Shown: positions 8,811 to 13,711 of the stretch, piece by piece
Position numbering within the stretch: position 1 is the first letter of the stretch
Layout of the letters: every line of letters starts with the position of its first letter
From: Fimbriimonadaceae bacterium
GTDB taxonomy: Bacteria > Armatimonadota > Fimbriimonadia > Fimbriimonadales > Fimbriimonadaceae
Assembly (NCBI GenBank): GCA_019638775.1
Contig: JAHBTD010000004.1
Coordinates: forward strand, 1 to 64,000
Reading direction: 5' to 3'
DNA: 64,000 nucleotides
Position numbers and translations under genes: made by a program
Notes under the pieces: model-generated
Seen by the model: the letters and a program-made list of their open reading frames with translations, nothing else
The model's database searches: none
What the model was told of the DNA's origin: nothing

Positions 8811-8841
8811 AAAAGACCGCTCACCCGAGCGGTCTTTTTTT
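8811..8841. terminator. Bidirectional rho-independent terminator
   Basis: AAAAGACCGCTC and GAGCGGTCTTTTTT form a 12-bp perfect stem with an ACCC loop, followed by a T run on the plus strand and, mirrored, on the minus strand. It closes the 119-residue gene on the plus strand and the UGA-containing gene on the minus strand. Confidence 0.9.
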
Positions 8842-9403
8842 ATGCCTTCTCTAGGTCTCTGATCCACTGGAGGAACTTCTTGGGGTCGAACCACAAAGGC
8901 CCGTCAATCACCTGGTGCATATAGTGCTTCGGAATCGGTACTTGCTCTCCCCACTCCTGCCCCTTGGGGAAAATGAAGTAAACGTCGTAAGCAAGGGGAG
9001 CATCCCTCGGCAGTTTAATCTTGGCTCCGTAAGCCAGCGCGATGTTCTGCTTCGTATCCCAATACTGCTTCACGCGCTTGTCTTTGAAGTAGCCAAAACC
9101 CTCTTCCGCGAGGGTTGCATTGTCGGTGCCATACGACGGCGTCCAGATGACATATGCGCTGATATCATCATCCTTTAGCTGCGGGAATATTTGACTTTGC
9201 ACCTCACGGGCGCCATCGAGGCAAGGTATTCAGCTGGGGGAGAAGATGAACATCAACCGAACCTTTTCACGGTCAGCGTTGAAGTCCGCTTTCAGCTTCG
9301 CGCCGTCGATCATCCCCTTAGGAATCTGGGCAACATCTTTTGCTCCGCCGGTCTGATTCTGGGCGGTAGCAAGGACGCTGAAAAGGGCAATCGCAGCGAT
9401 CAT
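8840..9403 (-). CDS. Probable secreted thioredoxin-fold selenoprotein (UxxC)
   Basis: One frame runs from ATG 9403 to TAA 8840 with a single in-frame TGA at 9232-9230. Read as selenocysteine, the product is 187 residues: a short hydrophobic leader (about residues 1-14, LFSVLATA-Q), then a thioredoxin-like strand RLMFIFSPS, U58-I-P-C61, and a helix LDGAREVQSQIFPQL. The UxxC replaces the redox CxxC just where a thioredoxin active site should sit, directly after the first core strand. The rest (ISAYVIWTPSYG, YWDTKQNIALAYG, AYDVYFIFPKGQEW) stays well coded. A hairpin starts a few bases after the UGA. The in-frame TAA four codons before the ATG fixes the start. Alternatives: a Cys-to-stop mutation (pseudogene), or translation of only 8840-9202. 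Probably a periplasmic thiol oxidoreductase; its partner is unknown. Confidence 0.75.
9195..9226 (-). promoter_or_regulatory. Candidate bacterial SECIS hairpin after the UGA
   Basis: Starting 6 nt after the UGA, UUGC-CUC pairs with GAG-(GU bulge)-GCAA, with further CUCG/UGAG pairing and an apical loop beginning GG about 16-17 nt after the UGA. Bacterial SECIS elements sit at this distance and have G in the first loop positions. Folded by hand only. Confidence 0.45.
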
Positions 9404-9462: not shown

Positions 9463-9495
9463 TGCAAAAGAAAACGAGGGCCCGTTGCCGGGCCC
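9463..9495 (-). terminator. Rho-independent terminator of the pilB-HDOD-pilT operon
   Basis: A 7-bp stem GGGCCCG / CGGGCCC (9478-9495, loop TTGC) lies 33 bases after the pilT stop. On the minus strand it is followed by CTCGTTTTCTTTTG. Confidence 0.7.
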
Positions 9496-9528: not shown

Positions 9529-11040
9529 CTAACTGGTGCCTTTGGCAAGTCGAGCAAAGCTTTCTTTGTCCACGGCTCGCATCAAACACTCTTCGTAAGT
9601 GCAGTAGCCGTTCTTAAAGAGATCAGCCAGTGAGCGGTCCATCGTCTGCATACCGTGCTGTGCATTCGTCTCAATGATCGAATACATCTGGTGTGTCTTA
9701 CCCTCACGGATGAGATTCTTAATGGCAGGCGTTCCCTGCATGATCTCCAGCGCTGCCGACCGTCCACCGCCCAGCCTTGGGATCAACTGCTGAGAGATAA
9801 CACCCTCAAGCGTGTTGCCAAGAAGAACACGAATCTGCTCCTGCTGGTCCGCCGAAAAGACGTCAACGATACGGTCAATCGTCGAAGGGGCATTTCGTGT
9901 GTGCAGCGTTCCAAAGACAAGGTGACCCGTCTCCGCAAGCGTCAACGCGGCTTCGATGGTCTCAAGGTCGCGAAGCTCACCAACGAGAATGATGTCGGGG
10001 TCCTCACGCAAAACCGCACGCAACGCGTTATGGAACGTGTAGGTATCGGCGTGAAGCTCTCTTTGGTTCACCATGCACTTCTTGTGAGAATGCAAGTACT
10101 CGATGGGGTCTTCGATGGTGAGAATGTGCGACGTCCGGGATTCGTTGATATCGTCGATCATCGAAGCGATGGTCGTGGATTTACCAGAACCCGTCGGACC
10201 CGTAACAAGAACAAGCCCAGAAACCCGCTTCGACATCTCGCGAAGAACCGGCGGTAAGCCAAGCTCCTCAAACGCCGGAATACGGGTAGGAATAGCGCGC
10301 AAAGCTGCCGCCATCGCCCCTTTCTGGAAGTAGACATTAAATCGGAAACGGCCAAGTCCCTTTACGCCATAACCAAAGTCCAGCTCGTGCGACTGCTCAA
10401 CCTTCTGGATTTGTTCGTCGCTAAGCACTTCGTAAATCATTCGCTGGCTGTCTTCTGGGTCGATAATCTGATAAGGCAACGGCTGCAGCTCACCGTCGAT
10501 TCTTGCCATCGGAGGAAGGCCCGTCGTGAAGTGGATATCACTGGCTTTGCGCTCGATAGCCGATCGCAAGATCTCGTCGATATGGACATCTTTGACGCTC
10601 TTCGCGTCGCTGGCAACCTCTGTTCCGGCCTTAACCTCGGCGTGCTCCATCCCAATATAGATGTCGCTCGTTTCCTTGAGCGGACGGGTATAGAGATCGT
10701 CGGGCAACGCCGCCGGCTTATAGTGTTTGTACTCCTCCTGAGGAGCTTCCGCAACGGGCTCCCCATCGGCGCCGTTGTTCACAACCAGTTCAAAATTCGC
10801 GGTCGGCTTGGATTTGCCTTCCATCTTATTAACGATGTCAGCAATGTCCTGTTCCGCATCAGCCATCGCATCGTTATCTGCGATAGAGAACTTAAGTCCG
10901 CCAGCCGGTGCGCTCTCCGAAGCATTAGTCGATTCTGGAGCGGTCCCGGCTTGGGCTCCATCTACCGCTTCAAGATTGGGAGTCTCCGACTCCTCATCCT
11001 TCTTAAGTACTTTGTTCCAATCAAATGCCTGTTCGCTCAT
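9529..11040 (-). CDS. pilT: Type IV pilus retraction ATPase PilT with long N-terminal extension
   Basis: Hexameric cytoplasmic ATPase that powers pilus retraction in twitching motility. From about residue 147 (VHIDEILRSAIERKASDIHF) it is a normal PilT: Walker A GPTGSGKSTT, the Asp box, Walker B-like LVGELRDLETIEAAL, the His box TGHLVFGTLHT, and the retraction-ATPase C-terminus. In place of the usual few N-terminal residues it has about 145 residues rich in acidic, Ala and Pro residues, predicted to be disordered. It is the last gene of an operon with pilB and an HDOD protein (22 bp gap) and ends in a terminator. AIRNA-like motif details of the C-terminus were not checked; PilU is an alternative. 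Confidence 0.92.
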   Translation of the reverse strand: MSEQAFDWNKVLKKDEESETPNLEAVDGAQAGTAPESTNASESAPAGGLKFSIADNDAMADAEQDIADIVNKMEGKSKPTANFELVVNNGADGEPVAEAPQEEYKHYKPAALPDDLYTRPLKETSDIYIGMEHAEVKAGTEVASDAKSVKDVHIDEILRSAIERKASDIHFTTGLPPMARIDGELQPLPYQIIDPEDSQRMIYEVLSDEQIQKVEQSHELDFGYGVKGLGRFRFNVYFQKGAMAAALRAIPTRIPAFEELGLPPVLREMSKRVSGLVLVTGPTGSGKSTTIASMIDDINESRTSHILTIEDPIEYLHSHKKCMVNQRELHADTYTFHNALRAVLREDPDIILVGELRDLETIEAALTLAETGHLVFGTLHTRNAPSTIDRIVDVFSADQQEQIRVLLGNTLEGVISQQLIPRLGGGRSAALEIMQGTPAIKNLIREGKTHQMYSIIETNAQHGMQTMDRSLADLFKNGYCTYEECLMRAVDKESFARLAKGTS

Positions 11041-11062
11041 TTTTCTGGCTCCTTTCTATCAA

Positions 11063-11929
11063 TTAAATCTGTAAGCTCGCCGCGTGCGCAATCACTCGAC
11101 TTCCCTCTTCGCTAATGCTCTCATAGCTTTCTGGACCGATGCCAAGCCGCTCAGCCGCCCACGATGGCATCCAGTGATCCGGGTCGTGCAAACCTTCAAG
11201 CGCGCGAAATGCTATCGCCGACGCAAGCGCGATGCAAGCGCCGTGCTTCGGAAAATCACTGTCCGCTGCGGTCGGCGTGTGGTAATCGATACCGGCAATC
11301 AACTCCTCAGGGAATCCCCATTTTTGAGCAGCTGCCTTTGCAATGTGAACGTGATCAACACCAAATAACTCCAACTCCGCCTCGATCTCAGTCATTCCGG
11401 CTTCGATCATCGGCTTTGTCAGTTCGTAATCCTCTTCGCCAAATCGATCCAGCAGAGTCTTGCCGATGTAATGCAGCAACCCACAGGTGTAAGCGTTGTC
11501 TGGGTTGATGCTTTTGGTCTCCTTGGCAAGCCATCGAGCACAAACCGCCGTGTCGATAGAGTGTCTCCACCAAGCGCGACGTCGGAGAGATTCCTTGTCG
11601 TTCTTGCCGACGAACATGTCGTAAATACCAACCGTCATCGCAATCTGCCGAACGGTTTTGAAGCCAAGAAACATGATGGCTTCCTTCACCGAGGTGACCT
11701 TTTTCGGCAGGCCGTAGTAAGCGGAGTTTGCGGCGGTCAACAGCTTGGTGCTGAATCCGGGGTCAACGACAATCGCACGCTCAATCTCCGAAGCCGCCGT
11801 ATCGGTCGAAGCCGATAGCTCGACGACCTTGTAGACGACCTGCGGAAGGACGGCAAGTTCGTTCACCTTGTCGAGTATCGTCTGGGTGCTGTCGTTATCT
11901 TCGTTATACGAAATCGGGGCCGCTGACAT
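11063..11929 (-). CDS. HDOD domain protein
   Basis: HDOD domains are HD-superfamily relatives common in signalling proteins, usually without the full catalytic HD set. The 288-residue product has the HDOD start TILDKVNELAVLPQVVYKVVEL, the AIVVDPGFSTKLLTAANSAYYG core, the LGFKTVRQIA segment, and residual HD-type histidines (WWRHSIDTA, GLLHYIGK, IDYHTP). The chosen ATG 11929 has GAGGA about 10 bases upstream; an alternative GTG at 11986 lacks any ribosome site. It lies between pilB (63 bp) and pilT (22 bp), so it probably regulates pilus function, perhaps in c-di-GMP signalling. That role is inference. Confidence 0.88.
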   Translation of the reverse strand: MSAAPISYNEDNDSTQTILDKVNELAVLPQVVYKVVELSASTDTAASEIERAIVVDPGFSTKLLTAANSAYYGLPKKVTSVKEAIMFLGFKTVRQIAMTVGIYDMFVGKNDKESLRRRAWWRHSIDTAVCARWLAKETKSINPDNAYTCGLLHYIGKTLLDRFGEEDYELTKPMIEAGMTEIEAELELFGVDHVHIAKAAAQKWGFPEELIAGIDYHTPTAADSDFPKHGACIALASAIAFRALEGLHDPDHWMPSWAAERLGIGPESYESISEEGSRVIAHAASLQI

Positions 11930-11992
11930 CGTTTGTGATTCCTCGTTTGTACTCAAAAAATTATCGGAAGGTTGTGGTAAATACACTACGCT

Positions 11993-13711
11993 TTAAGCGT
12001 AAATCACCCTCAAAACCTCATCAACGCTCGTGATTCCCATGAGAATCTTTTGCACAGAATCGTCCTGCAGCATCTTCATGCCGTTCTTCATGGCAAGCTG
12101 CCGCAAAACGTGAGCCGGCGACTTTTCAAGGATCTTGTCCTTGATGTCATCGGTCATAACCATCAACTCGTGAACTCCGGTTCGGCCCTTATAGCCAGTG
12201 CCTTTGCAGTGCTCGCACCCCGTTCCTCGGAAGAGCGTAATCTCGCCGCCCGTCTCGGCTCCAAGGTCATCCGGGACTGGGAAGCCGAATCGTACAAGGC
12301 TCTCGCGAGTGCCTGTGTAAGCCTCTTTACAGTGCGCACAGTTCTGCCGAACAAGCCGCTGGGCCAGAACGCCGATGATGGATGAGGAGATCAAGAACGG
12401 CTCAACCTCCATGTCAATCAGTCGAGTCGGGGCCGATGAAGCGTCGTTCGTGTGCAGCGTGCTCAAAACCAAGTGTCCGGTAAGCGCCGCTTCCATCGCG
12501 ATGGTCGCCGTTTCGGTATCGCGCATTTCACCGACCATGATGATGTCGGGGTCTTGACGAAGCATCGCTTTCAGACCAGCGGCGAAAGTCATTCCCGCTC
12601 GGTTGTTCACGCTGCACTGGTTGATTCCCGACAGTTCGTATTCGACCGGGTCTTCGATGGTGATGATGTTTGAAGAACCGTCGTTGACCTTGTTCAGAAT
12701 CGAGTAAAGCGTGGTCGATTTACCCGAACCCGTGGGTCCTGTGACGAGGATAATCCCATAGGTCTTGGAGCACATATCCTCGATGATTCGAAGGTTGTTA
12801 GGAAGGAAACCGAGCTTGTTCAGGCCGACCGTAATTCCGCCCTTATCAAGCACACGCATAACGATCTTTTCGCCATAGACAACAGGAAGGGTCGACACAC
12901 GCAGGTCGTAATCCTTGCTGTTCATGTTGATGCTGATGCGGTTATCCTGCGGGACTCGCTTCTCTGCGATGTCCATGTTCGCCATGATCTTAAAGCGCGA
13001 GGTCAACGGTGCAAGGACTTTGCGCGGAACGCGCATTCCATCAATCATCACGCCGTCGATTCGGTACCGGACGCGCACACCGTCCTTCATCGGCTCGATG
13101 TGGATGTCACTGGCTTTGTCCTGAATAGCCTGGCTGACAATGAGATTTGCAAGACGAATGACGGGGGCGTCTTCGCCCATCTCGCGCAATTCGGCTTCGC
13201 TGAGGTCCTCGTCGCCAGACTCAGTGACCTCAATATCTCCGTCAAAATCTCGCATCACGCCAGCGAGAGCATCATTGACATTGACATCGATCTTATAAAG
13301 GTTGGATAGGGCGTTGTTGAGATCATCCTCGCCAGCGATAACCGGCTCGATCTCCATCCTCGTGATCAGCCGAAGCTCGTCGATCACGAAGACATCGAGC
13401 GGGTTCGCCATGGCGACGACCAAGGTCGTGTCCTTGATCTCGATGGGGACCGATTTAAATCGCTTGGCGCTCTGGGGAGAGATGAGCTGGATGACCTCGT
13501 GAGGTGGCTGACGCTCACCAATCTCGACGTAAGGGATGCCCCAGACCTTTCCAAGAAGCCGAACACGGTCGCGCTCCTGAATGAAACCCATGTTGACGAG
13601 GACGCGTGCAATAGGTTCCATCCCGCCGAGCTCTTTCTGCTTCTCTGATGCAAGATGAAGCTGCTCTTCGGAGATTAATCCCTCATTTACAAATACGTCG
13701 CCACTCAGCAT
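11993..13711 (-). CDS. pilB: Type IV pilus assembly ATPase PilB (GspE family)
   Basis: Cytoplasmic hexameric ATPase that drives pilin polymerisation. Domains in order: N-terminal MshEN/T2SSE_N (residues 1-150, FVNEGLISEEQL, GIPYVEIGERQPP), N2 domain (VIRLANLIVSQAIQDKASDIH), Walker A GPTGSGKSTTLYS near residue 330, Walker B MVGEMRDTETATIAMEAA, and a tetracysteine zinc site C-A-H-C ... C-E-H-C followed by GYKGRTGVHELM. The 572 residues are normal. It is the first gene of the operon pilB-HDOD-pilT. The core pilus genes pilC, pilM-Q and pilin are not in the window. Confidence 0.95.
   Translation of the reverse strand: MLSGDVFVNEGLISEEQLHLASEKQKELGGMEPIARVLVNMGFIQERDRVRLLGKVWGIPYVEIGERQPPHEVIQLISPQSAKRFKSVPIEIKDTTLVVAMANPLDVFVIDELRLITRMEIEPVIAGEDDLNNALSNLYKIDVNVNDALAGVMRDFDGDIEVTESGDEDLSEAELREMGEDAPVIRLANLIVSQAIQDKASDIHIEPMKDGVRVRYRIDGVMIDGMRVPRKVLAPLTSRFKIMANMDIAEKRVPQDNRISINMNSKDYDLRVSTLPVVYGEKIVMRVLDKGGITVGLNKLGFLPNNLRIIEDMCSKTYGIILVTGPTGSGKSTTLYSILNKVNDGSSNIITIEDPVEYELSGINQCSVNNRAGMTFAAGLKAMLRQDPDIIMVGEMRDTETATIAMEAALTGHLVLSTLHTNDASSAPTRLIDMEVEPFLISSSIIGVLAQRLVRQNCAHCKEAYTGTRESLVRFGFPVPDDLGAETGGEITLFRGTGCEHCKGTGYKGRTGVHELMVMTDDIKDKILEKSPAHVLRQLAMKNGMKMLQDDSVQKILMGITSVDEVLRVIYA

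Follow-up and report, generated by a model that had tools for sequence, protein, structure and literature searches.

The gene on the reverse strand at positions 8840 to 9403 of the window, the 64,000-nucleotide stretch of a Fimbriimonadaceae genome analyzed here, appears to encode a selenoprotein of an unnamed thioredoxin-like family. From sequence comparisons, insertion of selenocysteine (Sec) at the UGA codon 9232-9230 is almost certain, and a thioredoxin-type redox site is highly probable. The reading as a whole, namely a UGA-decoding selenoprotein acting as an envelope selenol/thiol oxidoreductase, in a family whose substrate is perhaps mercury or mercury-damaged thiols, is one that we favor with good confidence. 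An initial annotation of this DNA had already proposed a selenoprotein, and that proposal withstood those of its stated refutations that could be computed and is borne out by the Sec machinery of the genome, by the recurrence of the TGA in homologs and by a SECIS-type hairpin.

The frame comprises 188 codons, from an ATG at 9403 to a TAA at 8842-8840, and contains just one in-frame TGA; with Sec at this position the product has 187 residues and the active-site stretch F-S-P-S-U58-I-P-C61 (Table 1). The start codon, the single TGA, the length and the active-site residues coincide exactly with those given in the initial annotation, which had also judged coding quality to be equal on either side of the TGA, in agreement with a third-position GC content of 0.68 upstream and 0.67 downstream. 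It had further anticipated that conventional annotation would shorten the gene to 8840-9202, and ORF calling with translation table 11 returns precisely this truncated frame, opening at a GTG. Of the 42 long non-overlapping ORFs of the window, 10 end normally at a TGA, and therefore the genetic code is not reassigned.

Table 1. Features of the selenoprotein locus, in window coordinates.
Feature	Position	Strand	Basis
Intrinsic-terminator-like hairpin GACCGCTC-GGGT-GAGCGGTC followed by a T run, just past the stop codon	8811..8834	-	Read from sequence
Predicted selenoprotein gene, UGA as Sec, 187 aa, UxxC thioredoxin-fold, unnamed family	8840..9403	-	Frame, homologs, predicted fold
Candidate SECIS hairpin GCGCC-CGUGA-GGUGC, -7.3 kcal/mol	9199..9213	-	p = 0.048 for the gene alone; homologs
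Alternative fold GCCUC-AUGG, loop CGC, -9.6 kcal/mol	9201..9222	-	Overlaps the 9199..9213 hairpin
Codon of Cys61, putative resolving Cys of UIPC, present in nearly all homologs	9221..9223	-	Sequence and homologs
Putative Sec-encoding TGA, residue U58, position 1 of the UIPC active site	9230..9232	-	Sequence and homologs
Terminator-like hairpin GGGCCCG-GCAA-CGGGCCC and T-rich tail, separating the selenoprotein gene from the PilT-like gene upstream	9466..9495	-	Read from sequence

The genome, a 4.3 Mb draft in 126 contigs that is 99.9% complete, was searched for the four components by which the selenoprotein proposal was to be checked, and all four are present: SelA (491 bits), SelB (377 bits, in a 637-aa frame), SelD (358 bits) and a tRNA-Sec (70.8 bits), which ARAGORN calls as tRNA-SeC with anticodon TCA (UCA). 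The SelD gene (G000:C3:202514-203419) likewise contains an in-frame TGA, located at the catalytic position (NCAGUASK), SelD being a selenoprotein itself. Among Armatimonadota, SelA is found in all 7 genomes carrying the family, versus 138 of 291 across the phylum (Fisher p = 0.005), and it scores above the cut-off in 42 of 46 Acidobacteriota carriers. SelA matches are absent from the two Cys-encoding Planctomycetota genomes (G296, G297) and from three TGA carriers outside the Armatimonadota, drafts found through contigs (G291, G292, G295), and there is no clear SelA in three Acidobacteriota TGA carriers (G401, G437, G563); in these six TGA carriers the gene is missing probably because the drafts are incomplete.

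The family comprises 57 non-redundant members from Armatimonadota, Acidobacteriota, Planctomycetota, Zixibacteria and Eremiobacterota. At the codon of U58, 45 members have TGA, far more than chance would give, 11 have Cys and one has Thr, so that alignment of homologs yields, with a single exception, the alternation of Cys and Sec that had been proposed as a check. The window genome is one of the 7 Armatimonadota carriers; carriers outside that phylum belong to Planctomycetota, Pyrinomonadaceae, Acidobacteria gp13, Zixibacteria and Eremiobacterota, and 47 of 396 sampled genomes from the phylum of the Pyrinomonadaceae genome carry the family. On the family tree, 9 changes of state are required at the U58 column, and well-supported branches alone already require no fewer than 5 switches between Cys and the other states. 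No relatives were found in viral and plasmid collections, and one candidate member (L037) was rejected as a generic TlpA protein.

Several members depart from the common active site. In two Acidobacteriota members (L117, L118) the motif is U-P-K-U, the C61 codon being a TGA as well, and a hairpin follows; these members possibly have a double-Sec active site. In L018 / L055 (G013), ACT (Thr) replaces the TGA to give TPRC, the hairpin is no better than chance and SelA is kept in the genome; this form possibly represents a loss of Sec. Three Armatimonadota members (L016, L017, L020) carry a small C-terminal thioredoxin-like domain, DF-like, with a second in-frame TGA (PGUR / PSUR) that has its own GGACGGAGUUCCGUCC-type hairpin.

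The published model of the bacterial SECIS element (16-37 nt, with a G within the first two loop positions; PMC13188914) agrees with both the placement and the loop of the hairpins identified in this family. A hairpin of this type follows the UGA in all 33 TGA members tested. The overall folding energy of the RNA downstream of the UGA in the window is not unusual, and because such window-only MFE z-scores are uninformative, a hairpin-specific test against synonymous recodings was adopted. Among the 33 TGA members, 76% have a hairpin score significant at the 0.05 level, with a combined p of about 1e-25 across members that are not independent of each other, and in the same test none of the 11 non-Sec members has a hairpin that stands out from chance. 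Pair counts over 18 sequences show 92% of cells paired and double changes at 4 pairs, and the covariation score exceeds those of all 500 shuffles and of all slid versions; within the window gene's own group covariation runs in the same direction but is weaker, with a compensatory change in close homologs. Hairpins of the Acidobacteriota type have 7-8 bp and a loop, mostly GGC or GUU, starting 17 nt past the UGA, and those of the Armatimonadota type have a G-U-rich loop starting 21-23 nt past it. The hairpin of the window gene is marginal by itself against synonymous recodings (p = 0.048), and two overlapping folds compete: in the first, the apical loop starts 21 nt past the UGA and has G at its second position, and in the alternative the loop starts 17 nt past the UGA, like in the Acidobacteriota members.

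These results bear directly on how the UGA is decoded. Readthrough as Trp, or as Cys by misreading, has a negligible probability, for although UGA is reassigned in some bacteria and readthrough needs no SECIS, no computed result favors it here, whereas TGA acts as a normal stop in the window, the alternative residue in homologs is Cys, and the genome has the complete Sec machinery along with SECIS-like hairpins. It is also very improbable that a Cys codon was mutated to, or misread as, TGA in a broken or truncated gene. The TGA is one base away from TGC and TGT, and the contig stems from a draft in 126 pieces; however, the same codon is TGA in 44 other non-redundant homologs, which come from independent genomes in several phyla, a recurrence by which sequencing error is discounted, coding quality is equal across the TGA, and a conserved, covarying hairpin forms after it that does not rise above chance in non-Sec members. 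Pseudogenization, error and code reassignment were thus rejected on the strength of homologs, stop usage and hairpins.

The thioredoxin-like fold initially proposed from sequence, with the active site following a core strand, agrees with both the AlphaFold2 model and the matches to known structures. The model, computed from 12 sequences, has a thioredoxin fold with a pLDDT of 85, in which a predicted strand (48-54) precedes U58 at the opening of helix 1 (59-75). The best structural matches in the PDB are 3eyt, 3ios, 2l5o, 2hyx and ResA, reductases of the TlpA/ResA/DsbF/DipZ/CcmG type, with Z of 12-13.6 and sequence identities of 8-18%. A profile match to TlpA/ResA/DsbE-type proteins covers the active-site half only, and a sequence search of the PDB yields only a weak thioredoxin match. 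The conserved features specific to the family are F-N...R, A-W-D-[VI]-[YF] and P-x-P-x-x-W-M-H-Q. In nearly all members A-[WY]-D precedes strand 141-145 and, judging from secondary structure rather than residue-level superposition, seems to sit where thioredoxins have their cis-Pro. In several homologs a clear signal peptide or a lipobox (LAACS, LGGCA, TLGCE) is recognizable, which favors the periplasmic location initially assigned to the protein, but the N-terminus of the window protein (MIAAIALFSVLATAQ) is hydrophobic with zero basic residues, a weak signal sequence, and the assignment is therefore best described as plausible.

A redox role follows from the fold and the motif. That this role might be that of a Se-dependent peroxidase, similar to peroxiredoxins or glutathione peroxidases, instead of a disulfide reductase, is improbable: the structural matches do include chains of both peroxidase types, at a Z of about 11, but TlpA-type chains rank higher, the spacing within UxxC corresponds to disulfide oxidoreductases, and the arginine typical of peroxiredoxins at the cis-Pro position (PMC2757866) appears to be absent from the family.

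The window gene stands alone, with no merR, merT or merA beside it. Upstream, in the same orientation, lie PilT-like (ORF 9529-11040), HDOD and PilB/GspE-like genes (window 9529-13711, reverse strand), and a separate transcript is suggested because a terminator-like hairpin separates the gene from the PilT-like gene. MerT was not found in the window genome, nor are there mer genes near the closest relative (L013). Across the family, about 20 of 54 loci adjoin MerR, MerT, MerC or MerA genes according to local profiles, and over half of the 54 are without mer genes. Curated models identify MerR in 8, MerT in 5 and MerC in 3 of 110 adjacent ORFs, together with one MerA above the curated cut-off, downstream in L093; MerA-like matches below this cut-off, one of them in the window genome, were treated as other flavin reductases. 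Further frequent neighbors are HMA, CopZ-like and ArsR genes, with an iterated "CopZ" profile left out of the counts on account of its overlap with HMA and MerT regions. In L049 and L050, the Cys form runs in the same frame into a MerP-like HMA domain. The mer neighbors are spread over several phyla and many separate branches of the family, and MerT occurs in 3 of 7 Armatimonadota carriers versus 32 of 284 other genomes (Fisher p = 0.04).

Further TGA-containing ORFs were observed around some of these loci. In L014, a glutaredoxin-like ORF with an in-frame TGA (UHFC), near position 2012 on the reverse strand, adjoins the family gene, in an ArsR-MerT/HMA cluster. A MerP/HMA-like ORF around position 560 of L017 (forward strand), with a TGA in its metal-binding motif (M-T-U-G-G-C) and a strong hairpin after it, looks like a Sec form of the heavy-metal-associated domain. 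Two more TGA-containing thioredoxin-like ORFs, FTUPYC and WUGPC, lie in L016 (near 400 on the forward and near 220 on the reverse strand), suggesting a selenoprotein-rich neighborhood.

The mer neighbors suggest soft-metal thiol chemistry, and a link between the family and mercury is on balance probable. A mercury role of the window copy is doubtful; we infer one from its relatives only, because the copy stands alone in a genome without MerT. The alternative that survives best, and that we regard as quite possible if short of probable, is a selenoprotein serving as a general envelope disulfide reductase of the TlpA/ResA/DsbE kind, for instance in cytochrome c maturation or the repair of oxidized proteins, with no metal link and with mer linkage being a matter of other subclades. 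The TlpA/ResA/CcmG/DsbF-type fold neighbors, the isolated position of the window copy after type IV pilus ATPase genes, the lack of MerT in its genome, and the predominance of loci without mer genes are in its favor, whereas the recurrence of mer neighbors across phyla and separate branches, and the apparent replacement of the TlpA-type cis-Pro, argue against it.

No model in Pfam or NCBIfam (June 2026) matches the window protein; 22 members searched against both libraries returned insignificant thioredoxin-type matches only (best Thioredoxin_4, 0.029, and Redoxin, 0.031). In a 2026 review of 119 prokaryotic selenoprotein families, no entry matches by NCBIfam or Pfam model, a comparison that covers the entries with such models, and the family is apparently not included among the new deep-Sep families (PMC12013277), as judged by name or domain. 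The initial annotation contained no SECIS element, wide family or mer-operon link. Bacterial UxxC thioredoxin-fold selenoproteins include Sec-Trx, Sec-Grx, DsbA/DsbG-like and Prx-like proteins (PMC13188914, Table 1); the family shares with this class the Sec in place of the first Cys of CxxC after the core strand, the SECIS directly downstream and the alternation of Cys and Sec forms, but differs in lacking a Pfam/NCBIfam model and in having conserved features of its own. TlpA/ResA/DsbE-type envelope thiol-disulfide oxidoreductases provide the best structural matches and have probable export in common with the family, yet low identity and a probable W/Y-D at the cis-Pro region set it apart, and the window protein matches no curated TlpA/ResA model in Pfam or NCBIfam. 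The HUIPC motif thioredoxin-like selenoprotein (NF047660) and SaoT (NF040730) are also UxxC thioredoxin-like selenoproteins. The former has the letters UIPC in common with the window protein, but its motif is H-U as opposed to the S-P-[TS]-U of the family, and it gave no match at E up to 10 for the window protein or up to 1 for the members scanned; SaoT matched neither the window protein nor any of the members scanned. Many family members adjoin mer operon genes, unlike the window copy, which lies outside any mer cluster, and no described Mer protein in the libraries searched has the family domain. The DF family (seleno)protein (NF049942; deep-Sep, PMC12013277) is encoded beside a family member in L048, and in some Armatimonadota the family domain is followed, in a fused protein, by a DF-like domain that contains an in-frame UGA too; this domain is distinct, however, and the window protein lacks it. 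In our judgment the family is new while belonging to a kind already known, although it may have been described before.

In the selenoprotein reading preferred here, the ribosome would read the UGA as Sec by means of the genome's own SelA, SelB, SelD and tRNA-Sec, presumably assisted by the stem-loop about 20 nt downstream. The product would be a small thioredoxin-fold protein, probably exported, with a U-x-x-C redox site predicted to open helix 1. It would most likely function as a cell-envelope selenol/thiol oxidoreductase, in which the selenol attacks its target, be it a disulfide, an oxidized sulfur or a soft metal held by thiols, before Cys61 resolves the intermediate. Given the number of relatives found in mer operons, the substrate favored by the family, as distinct from the window copy, may be mercury or mercury-damaged thiols. 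A more far-reaching proposal, which we advance tentatively and consider unlikely, is that the family forms a Sec-based arm of mercury resistance: exported and without the usual cis-Pro, it would strip Hg(II) or organic mercury from thiols by means of its selenol, which binds mercury very strongly, and then either retain the metal or hand it on to MerP/MerT-type proteins; solitary members such as the window copy would deal likewise with trace mercury or other soft metals.

The family is thus wide, mostly Sec-containing and occasionally Cys-containing, in phyla such as Acidobacteriota and Armatimonadota, and annotation under the standard code would truncate all of its Sec members. Its repeated changes from Sec to Cys, together with a possible loss of Sec to Thr, constitute natural experiments on the keeping and losing of Sec, and the mer genes that are frequently linked to it suggest, in a testable way, that environmental bacteria may connect their use of selenium with their handling of mercury.
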